From: Desulfobacteraceae bacterium
Lineage (GTDB): Bacteria > Desulfobacterota > DSM-4660 > Desulfatiglandales > Desulfatiglandaceae
Length of the DNA: 59,233 bases
Direction: 5' to 3'
NCBI GenBank assembly: GCA_030613055.1
Contig: JAUWMR010000023.1
Location: 1-59,233, forward strand
Positions 455 through 8,622 of this stretch are shown piece after piece. Below the pieces are notes generated by a model. The model saw nothing but the letters and a program-made list of their open reading frames with translations, had not been told where the DNA came from and did not search any database. Position 1 is the stretch's first letter, and every line of letters starts with the position of its first letter. The position numbers and the translations under genes were made by a program.

Positions 455-1165
455 ATGCAGAAACAATGGCATCTGAGCGAGCAAGATTTCTTCTACGACC
501 TTCCTGCTGAGAAAGAACACTTTTTGTCTCTATCAGTGAGGAAGTGTGTAAAAAAAGATGACTTTATTTTTTTTGAGGAGGAGTCGGGAGATTTATGCTT
601 TTATCTTGAAAAAGGCTCTGTCAAGATCTTCAGAACAAGTTTTTTGGGAAAAGAACTCGTAATTTTCGTTAGAAAAGCGGGTGAGATGTTTGGTTTGGCT
701 GAAGTCATAGATGGGAAAAAGAGAAAATGCAGCGCCCAGGCAATCACGTCTTGCATTTTGTATGAGATCAAGAAGGATGATTTTGAATTTCTGCTTTCTC
801 GGTATTACTCTCTTGCCAGGAAAGCCATTAGTATTCTGGGCAGACGCCTCAGGTATCTCTGTGAACAGATTGAAAACTTGATGGTTTGCAACGTAACCAC
901 GCGAGTTTTAAGGCTTCTGATTTACTTGACCTACCAAGAGTTAACTAATTCTGGTTCATGGAACAGACCAATTATGGTTCCCGTCAGGCTTACACAGGAG
1001 CAAATTGCAACTTTGATAGGTTCTTCCCAGCAAACGGTCAGTGAAACTTTGAAGAAACTTCGAAAAGATGGACTGATCCTGGTATCTAGGAAAGGAATTA
1101 CCCTTCTTAAACCTTACGAAATTTTTTCCAGAAGCTATCAGCACAAAATTACTGCAGAACTTTAG
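455..1165 (+). CDS. Crp/Fnr-family transcriptional regulator
   Basis: The protein has 236 residues: an N-terminal cyclic-nucleotide-binding-like beta barrel (about residues 20-130), a long dimerisation helix around GRRLRYLCEQIENLM, and a C-terminal winged helix-turn-helix with LTQEQIATLIGSSQQTVSET. The start at 455 is preferred over an upstream ATG at 398 because AGGA lies just before it and the N-terminus then fits the family. Cysteines are present but not in the N-terminal arrangement of oxygen-sensing FNR, so the signal is unknown. It lies about 440 bp upstream of the AprA-like operon on the same strand and is the obvious candidate regulator; that link is inferred from position only. Confidence 0.88.
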   Translation: MQKQWHLSEQDFFYDLPAEKEHFLSLSVRKCVKKDDFIFFEEESGDLCFYLEKGSVKIFRTSFLGKELVIFVRKAGEMFGLAEVIDGKKRKCSAQAITSCILYEIKKDDFEFLLSRYYSLARKAISILGRRLRYLCEQIENLMVCNVTTRVLRLLIYLTYQELTNSGSWNRPIMVPVRLTQEQIATLIGSSQQTVSETLKKLRKDGLILVSRKGITLLKPYEIFSRSYQHKITAEL

Positions 1166-1604: not shown

Positions 1605-3356
1605 ATGGCAAAAAAGTTACCTGATAATATAGATGAAATTCAAACAGAAGTCATTGAGACCGATCTGCTTATCGTCGGCGGTGGAAATGCAGGGTGCTTC
1701 TCCGCCATCGAAGGCAAGAAGATCAACCCTGATTTGAAGGTCACTATCATGGAAAAGGCCCACATAAGCAGGAGTGGTGCAACTGCAGCAGGCATGGACG
1801 CTATTAACACCTATATTCCTGAAGGGAAAACCCCGGAAGATCTTGTTAGATGGAGTCGATCTCAGGTAGGAGGAGGACCTATTCGGGAAGATTTGGCCTT
1901 GAGTAATGCCAAGGAACTAAACCAGGCCGTAGATGATCTCGAAGCGTGGGGCCTCCCCATTGTCAAAAACGAAGATGGAACATTCAAGTACCGTGGTGCA
2001 TGGGATATTTCCATCCACGGCGAGCAACTCAAGCCCATCATGGCTGAGAAGGCCATTGAGGTGGGAGCGGAAGTCTACAATCGCGTAGTTGCGACCTCAC
2101 TGCTGATGGATGGCGAAAGATGCGTAGGGGCCATGGGTTTCGGGGTCAAAGATGGGAAATTTTATGTATTTCGGGCCAAGGCCGTGATTATTTCAACTGG
2201 CGGGGCCTGCGGACTGTATAAATCTTACACCAGTGACGCCACCAATTCACACCACCAAACCTGGATGTGCCCTTTTAACGTTGGAACGGGGTACGCTGTG
2301 GGAATACGACAGGAAGCAGAAATGACGTCCATGGAGCAGAGATGGGTGGCCACCCGTACCAAAGATCACTGTGGTCCTGTAGATACCATTTCAGTGGGAT
2401 ACAAGTCTGCAATTATAAACGCCAAAGGTGATCGCATTTTACAGAAACATTATGCTCATTTAGGTGGGGATAAGGCGCCCCGCTATATTCGAGCCAATGC
2501 CCCCATGGAAGAGTGGCTCGCAGGGAGAGGGCCCACTTTTGTGGATACCACTCACCTATCCCCTGAGGAAGTGAAAGAACTGAAAATTGATTATCTGAAT
2601 GAGAGGCCAACATTTGTTCTGTTTTTGGCCAGTAGAGGTCAAGACATCACCAAGGACCCTATAGAGATATACGGAAGCGACCCGTATATTGTGGGTGGCC
2701 ATACGCAAAGTGGCTACTGGGTTGATCTTGAGCGAATGACGACTATTCCTGGACTATTCGCGGCAGGTGAAACAGCAGGCGGAAGTCCCAATAAATTTGT
2801 GGGTGGTTGTGCAGCAGAGGGGAAGCTGGCAACTCGGGGTGCTATAAATTACATTTCTTCAGTATCTCTACCTGAATTGGATTCCAAACAGGTAGGACAG
2901 GAGAAGGAACGGGTTTTTGCACCTCTTTTACGCGGGCCTGAGTTTGATGGCGTTTCCCCCCTTGAGATGGAGGAGCGGATGCAACGCCTTATGGACGAAT
3001 ATGCGGGTGGGACTTCCCAGTTTTACAGAACCAACGAAGAACGATTGGATTATGCACTGAAGCATCTGAAGATGTTGCAGAGTCAGGTCATATACCTTTA
3101 TGCAAAGGACCTCCATGATCTGATGAATGCCCATGAGGTCATTGACCGCTTAGATGTGGCTGAGGTTCTTACGCACCATCTTAAGTTCCGGAAAGAGACC
3201 CGCTGGCAGGGATGGCAGACACGGTCAGATTACCCTGAGATTAATCCTGAATTTGATTGCTTTGTTGAAAGCAGGCGTAACAAAGAAACGGGTGAGATCG
3301 AAGCCTTTACCCGCCCCTATGAGCAAATCGTCTCAGGGGATCGATATAAACCATAA
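1605..3356 (+). CDS. AprA-like FAD-dependent reductase (adenylylsulfate reductase alpha homologue)
   Basis: 583-residue flavoprotein of the fumarate reductase/AprA superfamily. The dinucleotide motif IVGGGNAG is at residues 23-30. A segment SRSGATAAGMDAINTY matches the AprA signature around the flavin. AprA-type positions remain recognisable: the Asn in DAINTY, the Arg in QRWVATRTKD, and the His in GGHTQSGYW. True dissimilatory AprA is about 650-670 residues, so this is a shorter relative with several loops missing. The downstream ferredoxin is also AprB-like, so the pair probably forms an AprAB-type heterodimer in the cytosol. Whether the substrate is APS/sulfite or another anion is not decidable by eye. 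First gene of a five-gene operon. Confidence 0.8.
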   Translation: MAKKLPDNIDEIQTEVIETDLLIVGGGNAGCFSAIEGKKINPDLKVTIMEKAHISRSGATAAGMDAINTYIPEGKTPEDLVRWSRSQVGGGPIREDLALSNAKELNQAVDDLEAWGLPIVKNEDGTFKYRGAWDISIHGEQLKPIMAEKAIEVGAEVYNRVVATSLLMDGERCVGAMGFGVKDGKFYVFRAKAVIISTGGACGLYKSYTSDATNSHHQTWMCPFNVGTGYAVGIRQEAEMTSMEQRWVATRTKDHCGPVDTISVGYKSAIINAKGDRILQKHYAHLGGDKAPRYIRANAPMEEWLAGRGPTFVDTTHLSPEEVKELKIDYLNERPTFVLFLASRGQDITKDPIEIYGSDPYIVGGHTQSGYWVDLERMTTIPGLFAAGETAGGSPNKFVGGCAAEGKLATRGAINYISSVSLPELDSKQVGQEKERVFAPLLRGPEFDGVSPLEMEERMQRLMDEYAGGTSQFYRTNEERLDYALKHLKMLQSQVIYLYAKDLHDLMNAHEVIDRLDVAEVLTHHLKFRKETRWQGWQTRSDYPEINPEFDCFVESRRNKETGEIEAFTRPYEQIVSGDRYKP

Positions 3357-3374
3357 AATAAGGGAGAAACTAAT

Positions 3375-3701
3375 ATGCCACCGAGAATTGATATAGAAAA
3401 ATGTGATGGATGCAAGGCTCAGGAAGAGCCTCTTTGTGAACAAGTGTGCCCGGGGGGCCTCATGTCTCTTGGCGAAAACATGAAAGCCTACTGCAGGCAG
3501 CTCCGGGATTGCTGGGACTGTATGGCCTGCGTTAAGATCTGTCCTGTGGGCGCTATTGAGACCCGAGTCCCATATCAGTTAGGCTACCACGTGGCCAAGC
3601 TCATCCCCATGATGGGGACCGATACCGTTACCTGGACCTGCCAAGACATTAACGGAAAAGTGGAACGGTTCAAATACAGGAATAGGAATGATGCAGAATA
3701 A
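3375..3701 (+). CDS. AprB-like two-[4Fe-4S] ferredoxin
   Basis: 108 residues with two four-cysteine clusters: C10, C13, C21, C25 and C46, C49, C52, C56. The spacing and the N-terminus (PPRIDIEKCDGCK, then CWDCMACVKICPVGAIETR) follow AprB of sulfate reducers, including a late TVTWT...NGKVERFKY strand. AprB is normally about 150 residues with a C-terminal tail that wraps round AprA; here the protein stops just after the strand, so that tail is missing. It follows the AprA-like gene by 18 bp and its stop overlaps the next start (ATGA/TAATG junction at 3701). It should pass electrons between the AprA-like flavin and the HdrA-type partner. Confidence 0.85.
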   Translation: MPPRIDIEKCDGCKAQEEPLCEQVCPGGLMSLGENMKAYCRQLRDCWDCMACVKICPVGAIETRVPYQLGYHVAKLIPMMGTDTVTWTCQDINGKVERFKYRNRNDAE

Positions 3702-6130
3702 TGAAGAAACTTAACCCTAAGGTAGGAGTTTTTATATGGGATCAAGGAGGCTGGCTCGCCCGGGCCATTGATCTCGATGCCCTGGTAAAAAAGTTTACCA
3801 AGGCAAAAGTTGTGGTTCGCTGCGAGGTCTTGAATGATCTATGGTCAACCGCCCTTCTTGATTTAATTAAGAAAGACTTAGAGGCCGGTCAGGTTGATCG
3901 GGTCATGTGGGTGGGACGTTTTACATCCTATCAAATCAAGTGCATCAAAGGAGAACTCGCTTCCACAGGATTGAATCCATACCTTCATGAATGGTGTGAC
4001 CTTGAAGAACAGGGAATTTGTGTTGAGGGTATAGAACCCGGTGTCCAGACCTGTAAGGCCATGACTTTGATTCAGATGGCGCTTGCCCGGACCCGCTTGC
4101 TTGAGCCCTTAGAGCCCATGGAGCTCCCAGGATCGAATGCAGTTCTCATCATCGGAGCGGGTGTGGCAGGGCTCCATGCGGCGCTTTCTTTTGTAGAGCT
4201 TGGCAAGCGCGTCTATCTGGTGGAAAAGCAAAGCGGTGTTGGTGGAAAGGTCGCTCTGCTTTCTCGTTTTTATCCGCGGCTCTGCGACCCGCGATGTGGA
4301 TTGGAATTTGTGCTGCATAAGCTCAGCGAGTCAGATCTTGTGGGGTTTTACACACTCTCAAATCTTATATCTCTTGATGGGAGCCCAGGAAATTTCCAGG
4401 CGAGGGTTCAAAAACAGCCCCGTTATGTAAACGAAGTACGCTGTAACACCTGTGGGGCATGCGTTGATGCATGCCCTGTGGAACTGTCCTGGTCTTCTGG
4501 GGTCATTCAAAATTTGACTCACAAAACCAAAATTTTGAAGGGGGTTAACGGGTTCCTACAATCAACAAGGAAGGCCATACATCCTTCAATACCAATGGCC
4601 TTTCCCTCCGCTTTTTTGATTGAGAAGGAACACTGCCCCCCAGAATGCAGGGAATGTGAAAAAGTCTGTCCCACACAGGCTGTAGAACTTAATCAATCTC
4701 CTTTGGAGGAGATACTCAGGGTCGGAGCTGTGCTTATTACAACCGGTTGGGACCCATATCCTTTATCTAAAGTTGTGGAAAAAGACTTCGGTTACGGGCT
4801 GTATCCCAATGTGATTAGCAACTTTGAGATGGAGCAGCTTCTGGGCTCTGAAACACAAGGACAAAGCCCACCATCTGGATTCTCCCTCAGTGATCTTAAG
4901 GAGGTTGGATTCATCCAGTGCGTGGGGAGCAGGGATTTAAAGCACCTCAAATACTGTTCTTCTGTTTGCTGCTCAGCAACTTTAAAGCAGGTTCTTTATC
5001 TAAAGGAGCAGGTGCCTGATGTAAATTGTTACATATTTTATCAGGATATCCGTTCCCCCGGTTTCGATGAAGACCTCTATCTGAGGGTAAGACTCCTGGA
5101 CGGCGTCGTATTTTTTCGTGACCTTCCCACAACAGTGGGACCAGAAGGGGATACAGGAAAATTGAATATCATAGCCAATGACATCGTGTTGGGCAGAAAC
5201 GTAGAGGTTAGTCTCGATCTCTTGGTTCTGGCAGGGGGTATGATCCCTTCCGAGGGCTCCCAAGAGGTGGCTCGAGTGCTCAATCTTCCTCAAAATCAAT
5301 ATGGTTTTTTTGAATCACATCTTCAGTGCCATCCAGAGGAAAGCCAAAGAACCGGCATCTATGTGGGGGGATGCGCCCGCGAACCCATGAATGTGGCTCA
5401 GTCCATCGAATCAAGTCATCGAGCTGCCATGAAGGCATTGAAATATTTAGAGGGAACCGTCCAGGTTGAGCCCACCTACCCGGTACTGGATAAGACCAAA
5501 TGCGATCAATGCAAACGCTGCATGGAGGAATGTCCATTTTCCAGCTTTGTATTCGATGAAAAGGGATTCCCTTCCCTGGACTTAGCAAAATGCCGTCAGT
5601 GCGGAAATTGTATGGGGGTCTGTCCTCTGGTGGCCATATCCCTTCGCCATAATACCATCAAACAGATGGCGGCTCAGGTCGCGGCGATAAACAGCTCGTT
5701 TATCGGCAGCAACGAGCCCGTGATCCTGGCATTTCTCTGTGAAAATGGTGCCTATAAAGCCGCCCAGTTTGCAGTTGAACTGGGCTTGTCCATCCCGCCC
5801 AATGTCATTTTCATCAAGGTTCCGTGCGCGGGCGCGGTAAACAACGCCCTTATTGCCGACGCGGTCTCTTCAGGCATCGATGGAGTTTTGATTGCCGGGT
5901 GTAAGGATGGCCAGTGCCAATATGTGTGGGGAAATCAGCTTGTCAGGAAACGAAGTAGTGACCTGAGTGATAAACTGAAAATGATGATGATTGAGCCTGA
6001 GAGAATCCGGTTTGAGGATCTTGAAATACGCGATGCTGGAAAGTACGTGGATATACTCACATCCTATATTGAAGATTTGAGGGCCATGGGTCCGAATCCA
6101 TTTAAGTTTATTAAACAGTTTCTATTTTAA
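3701..6130 (+). CDS. HdrA-MvhD fusion oxidoreductase, QmoB-like
   Basis: 809 residues. An N-terminal region of about 140 residues precedes an HdrA-type FAD domain (VLIIGAGVAGLHAALSF, then VEKQSGVGGKVA). A ferredoxin-like cluster follows (CNTCGACVDACPV), then the HdrA segment GFIQCVGSRDLKHLKYCSS. Near residues 595-645 there are two more [4Fe-4S] motifs (CDQCKRCMEECP and CRQCGNCMGVCP). The last ~130 residues are an MvhD/FrhD-type domain (VPCAGAVNNAL, GCKDGQCQYVWGN). This HdrA-MvhD layout is that of QmoB, which links AprAB to the quinone pool in sulfate reducers. No QmoA, QmoC, HdrB or HdrC lies nearby, so the membrane or thiol partner is absent or elsewhere. Overlaps the AprB-like gene by one base. 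Confidence 0.85.
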   Translation: MKKLNPKVGVFIWDQGGWLARAIDLDALVKKFTKAKVVVRCEVLNDLWSTALLDLIKKDLEAGQVDRVMWVGRFTSYQIKCIKGELASTGLNPYLHEWCDLEEQGICVEGIEPGVQTCKAMTLIQMALARTRLLEPLEPMELPGSNAVLIIGAGVAGLHAALSFVELGKRVYLVEKQSGVGGKVALLSRFYPRLCDPRCGLEFVLHKLSESDLVGFYTLSNLISLDGSPGNFQARVQKQPRYVNEVRCNTCGACVDACPVELSWSSGVIQNLTHKTKILKGVNGFLQSTRKAIHPSIPMAFPSAFLIEKEHCPPECRECEKVCPTQAVELNQSPLEEILRVGAVLITTGWDPYPLSKVVEKDFGYGLYPNVISNFEMEQLLGSETQGQSPPSGFSLSDLKEVGFIQCVGSRDLKHLKYCSSVCCSATLKQVLYLKEQVPDVNCYIFYQDIRSPGFDEDLYLRVRLLDGVVFFRDLPTTVGPEGDTGKLNIIANDIVLGRNVEVSLDLLVLAGGMIPSEGSQEVARVLNLPQNQYGFFESHLQCHPEESQRTGIYVGGCAREPMNVAQSIESSHRAAMKALKYLEGTVQVEPTYPVLDKTKCDQCKRCMEECPFSSFVFDEKGFPSLDLAKCRQCGNCMGVCPLVAISLRHNTIKQMAAQVAAINSSFIGSNEPVILAFLCENGAYKAAQFAVELGLSIPPNVIFIKVPCAGAVNNALIADAVSSGIDGVLIAGCKDGQCQYVWGNQLVRKRSSDLSDKLKMMMIEPERIRFEDLEIRDAGKYVDILTSYIEDLRAMGPNPFKFIKQFLF

Positions 6131-6205: not shown

Positions 6206-8002
6206 ATGAGCAAAAAACAGACTTACGTAATTATTTTCATCAGCGCATTCCTTTTGTCATTTGGAATGATACAATCGTCACCAACAGCTGCAATAGAATC
6301 CGCGCTTGCGGCCACTAAACCCCATACTAATATATCATCCGCTGAGTTAAAGGTGGGAGACACCGTCACGGTGGAGGGGCAGATTCCAGCAGGAGAAGAC
6401 CTGTTTATCGTTATTGCCGCGCAGACGACTTTTGCGCCAAAGGATGCGTTAGGGGTAAAGGAGCGAAAGCGATTAACTAATAAAGATAATATTGCCAAGG
6501 ATAAGAAGACCAAAAAAACTATTATTGATCCAGCTACTGGTAAGAAAAAGTTAAAATGGAAGCCCGGCACAACCATTCCTTACCTGTATTACATTGTTAC
6601 CAATAATCCCGAGGTTTTTGGGAAGGTTGGGGATAAAAGGTATGGTGGTGCCTTTTTCTGGAAAGGCCTTTACAAGACAAATATGTTTTATTTGACAAAA
6701 TGGAATAAGTTGTCTGACCTGGTAAAGGAGTATCTGGGGCCTATCAAGACCAAAGAACAGTGGAATTTCCTAACTTATGCCCATGAAAAGAAGTTCGGCA
6801 TTAATACCATTGGCAAGGAAGGGACACTGAAAGGAAAAGTGGTGATCTTTTCCCGCACTGTGGTAACCGATTACAACAAAGAGCCATATTACTGGAATAA
6901 GGGAACCTCTGTCTGGCTGGATAAAGCTACAGGTAAATTTAAGGCAAGCTTTAAGACATTTCGCCACACAGCGCCTAACACGAAATTTGATGTATTTGTG
7001 AATAGCCAAAAGGCGGGGACATACAATTTAGCCGCCAAGGGCTACTGGCTAAGCCGCGGCTGGCGCTATATGAACCCTTTGTGGATACTTCTCGGCGCCG
7101 TCGTGATAGGGATATGGTTTGGTATGATGGGAGCTGGAGGCGGTATGATGATGTCTGCCTATCAGGTGATGGTTGTCCATACATCAGGTCCTATGGGAAT
7201 CAATGCGGCCAACACCCTGAAGCCTTCAAACGCGCCGCTGACTTTTTTTTCTTCCCTTGGCGCCATGTATCGCTACGCCATCAAAGATCGGAGAGTAGCT
7301 TGGCCTTTAGGGATGTGCTTCGGTGCTGGCATCTTTATCGGTGCTTTCTGGATAGGGCCCAACTTTTCGGCCAAGTATCTCCCCATGATGGTCTATAAGC
7401 ACTGGCTTGGCATCCTGACCCTGAGCATGGGTATGCGTCTGGTTTATGAGCTTACCCCGAGAGTGATGGAAAAACGAAAGGCAATCAAGTCCATTATTGC
7501 CAAATTCAATGAAGAGGTAAAAAAAGCTAGGGAAGAAGGGCGTGCGGCCCGAATGGGAAAGATCGAGACTATTAAAGGTGGATTTGGCGCTATCTGGGAC
7601 TACCGATTTAAGTTCTGGGGCGAGGAGTTTGCAATTAAACCTTGGATTTTTGGCTTAACTGGAATCTTTGTCGGTGTGGTAGCAGCCTCTTTCGGCATCG
7701 GTGGCGGATTCTTATTAGTTCCCATTATGACTACCCTGGCGGCGTTGCCCATGTATATGGCGGTGCCCGTATCTATGATAGGAACCATGTTTAGTTCGGT
7801 CTGTGCACTTGCCGGATATTTTTTGCTGGGTTACTACCCCGATCTGGTCATTGCAACATGCATCGTTTTAGGTAGTTTTGCCGGCGGTGTGATTGGGTCC
7901 AGAATTCAGGGATACTTTACTGAAAAGCAGCTAAAGTGGGCCTTGGCTATTCTGATGTTCTTTCTATTCTTCAGATTTACAGGAACGGAGATCTGGATCT
8001 AA
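6206..8002 (+). CDS. TauE/SafE-family exporter with large extracytoplasmic N-terminal domain
   Basis: 598 residues from ATG 6206, which has AAGGAGG a few bases upstream; an earlier ATG at 6137 lacks this. Residues 1-35 form a signal-like hydrophobic segment. Residues 36-290 are a hydrophilic, lysine-rich domain of no family I recognise. The rest is a multi-helix TauE/SafE permease with two glycine-rich repeats (GMMGAGGGMMMSAYQVMVVH and AASFGIGGGFLLVP), the internal duplication typical of sulfite/organosulfur exporters. A charged cytoplasmic loop (KRKAIKSIIAKFNEEVKKAR) separates the halves. Location beside AprAB-like genes suggests export or import of sulfite, sulfonate or another sulfur anion; the substrate is an inference. 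Confidence 0.82.
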   Translation: MSKKQTYVIIFISAFLLSFGMIQSSPTAAIESALAATKPHTNISSAELKVGDTVTVEGQIPAGEDLFIVIAAQTTFAPKDALGVKERKRLTNKDNIAKDKKTKKTIIDPATGKKKLKWKPGTTIPYLYYIVTNNPEVFGKVGDKRYGGAFFWKGLYKTNMFYLTKWNKLSDLVKEYLGPIKTKEQWNFLTYAHEKKFGINTIGKEGTLKGKVVIFSRTVVTDYNKEPYYWNKGTSVWLDKATGKFKASFKTFRHTAPNTKFDVFVNSQKAGTYNLAAKGYWLSRGWRYMNPLWILLGAVVIGIWFGMMGAGGGMMMSAYQVMVVHTSGPMGINAANTLKPSNAPLTFFSSLGAMYRYAIKDRRVAWPLGMCFGAGIFIGAFWIGPNFSAKYLPMMVYKHWLGILTLSMGMRLVYELTPRVMEKRKAIKSIIAKFNEEVKKAREEGRAARMGKIETIKGGFGAIWDYRFKFWGEEFAIKPWIFGLTGIFVGVVAASFGIGGGFLLVPIMTTLAALPMYMAVPVSMIGTMFSSVCALAGYFLLGYYPDLVIATCIVLGSFAGGVIGSRIQGYFTEKQLKWALAILMFFLFFRFTGTEIWI

Positions 8003-8004
8003 AT

Positions 8005-8622
8005 ATGATTTATTTCAATGCAATCTCTGATTTTATGGACCTTATATGGGAAGAAATCAGCGTGGTATTCCCAGCGATAGGTGGACTCTTGGCGATCTTA
8101 TTCTACCCCTTAATTTTGATGGGGCCGGCAGTAGCTATCATCGGCATTGTTCTCTCAACAATACTTATTACCCGTTGGCTTTCCGTACGTACAGAACCAG
8201 AGCGTCTAAAAAAACTCCGCTCAGACTTTCAACACTGGATGAGCGTACGGAAAGCCGCTATGCAAGCCTCTGATAATGAAAATCAAAAAAAAATCAACGC
8301 CAAGGCTGTGGACCAGAGCTATCTTGATGAAATTTATGTTAAGATGTACATTGAATCGACATGCTGGAACGGGCTGACAAAAGGTGTACCGATTCTCTTG
8401 ATGCTCCACTGGGTAACTTGTCAGTTTAATACGGAAAATTTAATAGCTCAATACGGGAAAGGCTATGTAGTTAAACTACCTTTCGCCTTGGGGGTATCGG
8501 GAGATACCCTGGGTGCCTTTGGATGGTTTTTAACTTCCCTCGTTTTATGCTATTTAGGTCTATGGATGTTTAAAATGGTGAAAAGGGGCTCTATTAGGAA
8601 AATTTTCAATATCTGCATTTAG
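8005..8622 (+). CDS. Small membrane protein of the AprA-like operon, unknown function
   Basis: 205 residues starting at ATG 8005, two bases after the exporter stop, so translation is probably coupled. It has about four hydrophobic segments: two close together near residues 20-60, one around GVPILLMLHWV, and one near the C-terminus. A charged helix (RTEPERLKKLRSDFQHW, then KAAMQASDNENQKKINAKA) lies between the first and third. That helix-hairpin-helix arrangement recalls EMC3/DUF106/YidC-type proteins, but I cannot claim homology. It ends the operon. A role as accessory subunit of the exporter is possible from context only. Confidence 0.6.
   Translation: MIYFNAISDFMDLIWEEISVVFPAIGGLLAILFYPLILMGPAVAIIGIVLSTILITRWLSVRTEPERLKKLRSDFQHWMSVRKAAMQASDNENQKKINAKAVDQSYLDEIYVKMYIESTCWNGLTKGVPILLMLHWVTCQFNTENLIAQYGKGYVVKLPFALGVSGDTLGAFGWFLTSLVLCYLGLWMFKMVKRGSIRKIFNICI

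Follow-up and report, generated by a model that had tools for sequence, protein, structure and literature searches.

An enzyme that resembles adenosine 5'-phosphosulfate (APS) reductase, AprAB, in a genome that already encodes one raises the question of what the second enzyme reduces. The window analysed here, a stretch of 59,233 nucleotides (contig JAUWMR010000023.1 of assembly GCA_030613055.1; C45) from the 4.26 Mb genome of a Desulfobacteraceae bacterium that groups with Desulfobacterota-type relatives, carries such a pair, here called AprA2 and AprB2, next to a HdrA-MvhD fusion protein. The initial annotation of the three genes was borne out in its descriptions and coordinates: AprA2 has 583 residues against 653 in the AprA of its own genome (about 60-80 fewer than known AprAs), and AprB2, with 108 residues where the own-genome AprB open reading frame (ORF) has 169, lacks the C-terminal tail. 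The genes are 18 bases apart or overlapping and, from this spacing, form one operon. It had also been noted that sat, dsr, QmoA, QmoC and HdrBC genes are absent nearby; no CCG (HdrB/HdrD-type) domain is found on the window contig, but family searches of the genome located sat, aprBA and qmoABC on contig C12 and dsrAB on C18. The host is thus equipped as an ordinary sulfate reducer, and the AprA2 locus is an extra system. We propose, with a probability of about 0.55, that it encodes a third class of AprAB-type flavoenzyme, which releases sulfite from an imported sulfo-anion and thereby feeds Dsr.

AprA2 passed the cut-off of the profile PRK06854.1-2 (606 bits, cut-off 557), a model also named APS reductase alpha, and fell under that of the curated aprA model TIGR02061 (384 bits, cut-off 641.75); AprB2 fell under that of the curated TIGR02060 (87 bits, cut-off 135.65) and aligns to residues 1-105 of 1jnr_B and also to 8a8o_C. 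The best PDB match of AprA2 is 8a8o, the 3'-phosphoadenosine 5'-phosphosulfate (PAPS) reductase MtPAPSR (515 bits), followed by the APS reductase of A. fulgidus, 1jnr/2fja (351 bits), and its AlphaFold model gave Z scores of 43.4 to 8a8o (42% identity in the structural alignment) and 36.4 to 2fja, with FrdA structures scoring about as high as AprA. The model is of moderate quality (mean pLDDT of 72) and weak around the active site, and residue positions were therefore taken from sequence alignment. A scan of 84,980 species genomes returned 62 close matches at 62-87% identity, a few of them partial, in Desulfobacterota, in Thermodesulfovibrio and other Nitrospirota and in Bacillota, with groundwater metagenome-assembled genomes (MAGs) and thermophilic Bacillota among the carriers; about a quarter of the sampled Desulfovibrionaceae-type genomes (37/149) have matches of at least 68% identity. 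Within the family and order to which the window belongs, genomes have nothing beyond true AprA or remoter flavoproteins, at about 40% identity or less, so AprA2 is patchy there, and the host may have gained it horizontally. In a maximum-likelihood tree, calculated by a quick method and with some long branches, the AprA2 proteins form one side of a branch with a support of 100, as does true AprA, and MtPAPSR groups with seven Desulfobacterota proteins (support of 95). AprA2 is a coherent clade apart from true AprA and from the MtPAPSR clade. It thus falls outside any characterised AprA or fumarate-reductase clade, a place inside which would have counted against the initial annotation.

In order to compare the active sites, 76 AprA2 sequences (some rows from the same species) were aligned with 32 true AprA, seven PAPSR-like proteins and MtPAPSR, using A. 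fulgidus numbering. N74, W234, R260, R265, R317, H398 and K447 are unchanged in 76/76 AprA2, and these include all four residues of the flavin N5 site (N74, W234, R265 and H398); the correspondence with the Asn, Arg, His and Trp of AprA, which the initial annotation had marked for checking, holds in the alignment. Equally fixed in all 76 are the replacements Q145 to D, E141 to R, Y95 to W, F261 to W, G274 to D, L278 to V, S71 to D and H319 to N, although E141 itself is not invariant in true AprA, D. gigas showing S beside an insertion. Q145 is conserved in the substrate loop of APS reductase, and the loop around Q145/S122 has been assigned to the choice of substrate (PMC10322725); position 145 is Q in the true AprA tested. 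The loop reads R..WD in AprA2, E..WQ in the APS type and R..RS in the PAPS type, and at the 3'-phosphate positions of MtPAPSR, K120/R121/S122, AprA2 has a variable residue (A in the window), W and D, the last two positions being R and, in most sequences, S in the PAPSR-like clade. Since the loop residues differ from both patterns, AprA2 fits neither. The kept AprA-type residues together with the changed loop suggest a sulfite-flavin chemistry with another leaving group or another mode of holding it.

These observations bear on the possibility that AprAB2 is an alternative APS reductase, which would reduce the APS made by the host's own Sat and draw its electrons not from QmoABC but from soluble HdrA-MvhD. 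The genome does have Sat, as do 56/68 of the AprA2 carriers by sequence match, NCBIfam would name AprA2 APS reductase alpha, the flavin-site residues are kept, and DASS transporters, which occur beside AprA2 in relatives, can carry sulfate (PMC5840216). We nevertheless consider this explanation unlikely, because Q145 and neighbouring positions of the substrate loop are replaced in every AprA2, sat is not among the recurring neighbours of AprA2, the own genome already has a true AprBA-Qmo system, and 12/68 carriers are without Sat, none of them with CysD over cut-off. Seven of these twelve are also without true AprA, yet have DsrA over cut-off (a Bilophila, an Avidesulfovibrio, another Desulfovibrionaceae, a Mailhella and three Bacillota), and as the seven cluster in two lineages, a real absence of Sat is likelier than chance loss; in Ca. 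Bilophila faecipullorum, AprA2 is the only AprA-like match at E<=1e-60, with DsrA present and no Sat. True AprA is kept in three of the twelve, which suggests that some absences come from incomplete genomes, and three are without DsrA over cut-off; among all AprA2 carriers tested for it, DsrA was over cut-off in 22/26. The existence of carriers without Sat, CysD and true AprA argues that Sat-derived APS is not the common substrate of AprA2.

The genes around AprA2 in relatives, called by tblastn, were compared over the 39 loci with enough flank. A DASS, TTT, TSUP or PhnD-like gene lies within a few kb of AprA2 in 38/39 loci, and a Crp homologue is found near it in the same proportion. The family of the transporter varies: most loci have DASS; the Bilophila/Mailhella group, along with some others, has TctCBA; Nitratidesulfovibrio has a TSUP of another kind; the window pairs TSUP with a small membrane protein; and several loci have a PhnD-like protein in addition. 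The constant members are a transporter, AprA2, AprB2 and a regulator. Clustering of the neighbour genes revealed no further catabolic enzyme that recurs, which would favour a substrate for whose second product no additional pathway is required, and the recurring neighbours include no sulfate-activation or cysteine-synthesis genes. The PAPSR-like clade served as control: its neighbours are cysD/cysN or else cysteine synthase and siroheme reductase, as its known function predicts, which indicates that gene context reports the substrate class. The MtPAPSR-like AprA proteins of Desulfobacterota (L148-L154), with their R/R/S pocket and with cysD/cysN (L148) or cysteine synthase and siroheme reductase adjoining, are likely to be assimilatory PAPS reductases outside methanogens.

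AprA2 might also be an enzyme of the fumarate-reductase family whose substrate is a di- or tricarboxylate brought in by the importer, as DASS and TTT often carry carboxylates and the fold family is common to FrdA and SdhA. We hold this to be a little less probable still than an alternative APS reductase. AprA2 has the AprA-type N, W, R, GGH and NKF residues, which the SdhA and a fumarate-reductase-like protein of the own genome do not have; the NRLG motif of SdhA is absent, AprA2 reading NKFVGG (KF as in AprA) where the own SdhA has NRLGAS. Furthermore, its partner is of the AprB type, and DsrA accompanies it in most carriers tested.

For the proposed sulfite-releasing enzyme, the TSUP permease and its partner would import a sulfur oxyanion, X-SO3, which AprA2 would bind beside flavin adenine dinucleotide (FAD); N5 of the reduced flavin would accept the sulfonyl group, in line with what has been put forward for APS reductase, and X would leave with release of sulfite, a mechanism suggested by the kept residues. 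Two electrons would pass from HdrA-MvhD to the two AprB2 clusters and on to AprA2, an order that the gene content suggests, and the sulfite would then be reduced by the Dsr of the host. HdrA-MvhD appears to draw on partners that differ by lineage. It stands alone in the window and some relatives, with HdrC and HdrB in L086, L087, L091 and L106, with a QmoC-like membrane protein and HdrB in L070, and with HdrC and a three-gene (NADH-type, Flx-like) module resembling sulfhydrogenase/AsrAB beta and gamma subunits in L071 and L075; some Bacillota have a short HdrA/FlpD protein, and Desulfovibrionaceae have no adjacent electron partner. The initial annotation had described the partner set as minimal; with such partners adjacent in relatives, the outcome that it had itself named as refuting, this does not hold for the clade. 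Its suggestion of a soluble APS-reductase-like or other oxyanion-reductase system is supported in so far as AprAB2 is an oxyanion reductase of AprAB type, separate from the known ones and probably soluble, that is linked to HdrA-MvhD and not to QmoABC; it is not supported for Sat-made APS as the common substrate. In HdrA-MvhD relatives in the window's class (L049-L067) the reading frame contains a TGA, which resembles the situation in selenocysteine HdrA, and the window HdrA is without it.

As to the identity of X, it is probably not AMP supplied via Sat. Among single candidates thiosulfate (X = sulfide) leads, though taken alone it is still an unlikely one, and a small sulfonate or an organic thiosulfate would be our next guess. 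One hint singles out thiosulfate/polysulfide chemistry and comes from the permease. Nine further loci, eight in other genomes and one in the own genome, have a homologue of the permease followed by a recognisable homologue of the small membrane protein or a membrane gene of similar size, and a molybdoenzyme lies near this pair in 5/9. The best NCBIfam match of the three molybdoenzymes scanned is thiosulfate reductase PhsA, below cut-off, and the one searched against solved structures came closest to 2vpw, a Thermus thiosulfate/polysulfide reductase; the remaining two were assigned by matching start sequences. On a broader and tentative reading, somewhat below even odds, AprAB2 would be a molybdenum-free flavin reductase that, with no nucleotide involved, splits sulfite off thiosulfate or a different imported sulfo-anion, a third substrate class of AprAB and a hitherto unassigned entry route to sulfite respiration in gut and subsurface bacteria. 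The PhsA-like molybdoenzymes themselves (L178, L180, L181, L183 and L184), without an obvious signal peptide and in several cases with an Fe-S subunit, are possible cytoplasmic thiosulfate/polysulfide reductases with their own importer. The pair in the own genome (L177, contig C97), a second TSUP permease of 59% identity with a small membrane protein, lies away from any AprA gene.

Several points weigh against the release of sulfite from an imported sulfo-anion. The function of AprAB2 is predicted from sequence and context, and its TTT and DASS importers are also carriers of carboxylates. Most of the Sat-less genomes are MAGs, in which the loss of one contig could remove both sat and aprBA, as these usually adjoin. 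The same state, with AprAB-like genes present and Sat absent, is also found in the published isolate genomes of Bilophila wadsworthia (PMC11610557) and Taurinivorans muris (PMC10507020), whose proteins may belong to the AprA2 class. T. muris respires thiosulfate and has an AprAB homologue but no Sat or Qmo, and this AprAB was undetected in cells on taurine, sulfolactate or thiosulfate (PMC10507020), which counts against thiosulfate if the protein is of the AprA2 class. Added APS supports growth of B. wadsworthia, which has AprAB-like genes (PMC11610557); this would fit a scavenger whose importer takes up APS or PAPS released by other bacteria for reduction by AprAB2; the strain in question, QI0013, is without Sat and has two AprAB-like clusters. 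Ca. Bilophila faecipullorum, with AprA2, DsrA and no Sat, would fit as well. Such scavenging seems to us improbable, since external hydrolysis could account for growth on APS, a 3'-phosphate would probably be ill matched to D134, and the same genes occur in groundwater MAGs and in thermophilic Bacillota. DASS, TTT and TSUP, moreover, are not known as nucleotide carriers.

APS reductase is reversible and TSUP proteins include sulfite exporters, and the window permease belongs to this family (PF01925), so that AprAB2 might instead serve detoxification by oxidising sulfite; AMP or some other molecule would be the acceptor, HdrA would receive the electrons and the permease would export sulfite. 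This is the least probable of the functions considered so far, because without Sat the APS formed cannot become sulfate and ATP, the usual transporters in relatives (DASS, and TTT with its TctC receptor) are uptake-type systems, and relatives with Dsr can already remove sulfite. Dissimilatory phosphite oxidation (AMP + phosphite -> ADP), prompted by the PhnD-like protein, is kept only as a remote idea, weakened by the presence of that protein in a minority of loci, by a family that covers other oxyanion binders and by the absence of PhnC/PhnE among the recurring neighbours.

AprAB2 shares with AprAB (A. fulgidus 1jnr/2fja; D. gigas 3gyx) the alpha/beta architecture, FAD, two [4Fe-4S] clusters and N74, W234, R265, H398, R317 and K447, and differs in its shorter alpha and tail-less beta subunits, in Q145 to D and the other fixed changes, in its own clade and electron partner and in its occurrence without Sat. 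The assimilatory MtPAPSR of Methanothermococcus thermolithotrophicus is the closest solved structure, with similarly short alpha and beta subunits, but AprAB2 has K120/R121/S122 changed, and importers and Crp in place of cysDN or cysteine synthase and siroheme reductase. QmoABC and HdrABC have in common with AprA2 loci the HdrA-MvhD fusion and, in relatives, HdrC, HdrB or a QmoC-like protein, whereas the window holds the HdrA-MvhD part only, as a full-length HdrA2-type protein with 36.5% identity to the own QmoB, confined to residues 340-802 and thus to the second half.

The architecture of the enzyme has been described before, and in gut sulfite reducers single genes have been recorded as putative AprAB; the reports on B. 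wadsworthia QI0013 (PMC11610557) and T. muris (PMC10507020) treat these proteins as APS reductase. A literature search, with most subscription journals outside its coverage, returned no paper naming the AprA2 gene set, nor did the papers searched describe a class set apart by its pocket residues, its constant transport gene and its presence in Sat-less genomes. The AprAB of Bilophila is disputed, with one report of none (PMC8667426) and one of a putative AprAB (PMC11610557), a disagreement that could be explained if that protein belongs to the AprA2 class. AprA is a marker for sulfate respiration and annotation pipelines name AprA2 genes APS reductase; with AprA2 in Sat-less sulfite reducers (Bilophila-, Mailhella- and Avidesulfovibrio-type, and several Bacillota) such calls can be wrong, and AprA2 is a concrete candidate for the source of their sulfite from a compound still to be assigned. 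A third AprA-like protein was seen in a Peptococcaceae MAG (genome of L120; G508:C29:69801-71522), in a frame of 598 aa with 437 bits to TIGR02061; sat lies about 3 kb and true aprA about 5 kb away.

Table 1. Genes of the AprA2 locus in the window, with the basis of each assignment.
Feature	Coordinates	Strand	Basis
Crp/Fnr-type transcription regulator	455..1165	+	PF00027 and PF13545; ORF listed from 398, start 455 fits homologues
AprA2, FAD-binding alpha subunit, APS-reductase-like, 583 aa	1605..3356	+	PRK06854.1-2, PDB match, clade, residues, fold
AprB2, 2x[4Fe-4S] beta subunit, 108 aa, without AprB C-terminal tail	3375..3701	+	TIGR02060, 1jnr_B, 8a8o_C
HdrA-MvhD fusion, 809 aa	3701..6130	+	NF040770 542 bits, PF02662
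TSUP (TauE/SafE) permease, long N-terminal extension behind signal-like segment	6206..8002	+	PF01925 107 bits, hydrophobic segments
Small membrane protein paired with TSUP permease	8005..8622	+	ORF from 7936; ATG 8005 directly behind permease

The HdrA-MvhD protein has the features of the fusion, an FAD domain, Fe-S motifs (at residues 248, 312, 601 and 631) and a C-terminal FlpD/MvhD domain, behind an N-terminal domain, and its profile matches (HdrA2 542 bits, FlpD 121 bits), like those of AprA2 and AprB2, are far above chance. The permease ORF is open from 6137, and the ATG at 6206 is preceded by AAGGAGG. The small membrane protein gave no Pfam or NCBIfam match and PADLOC gave no match; cysS- and uvrB-like genes follow downstream. 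On the own contig C12, an ETF-QO-like ORF, judged by eye (L016:5082-6782), lies between the true aprBA and the qmoABC genes.

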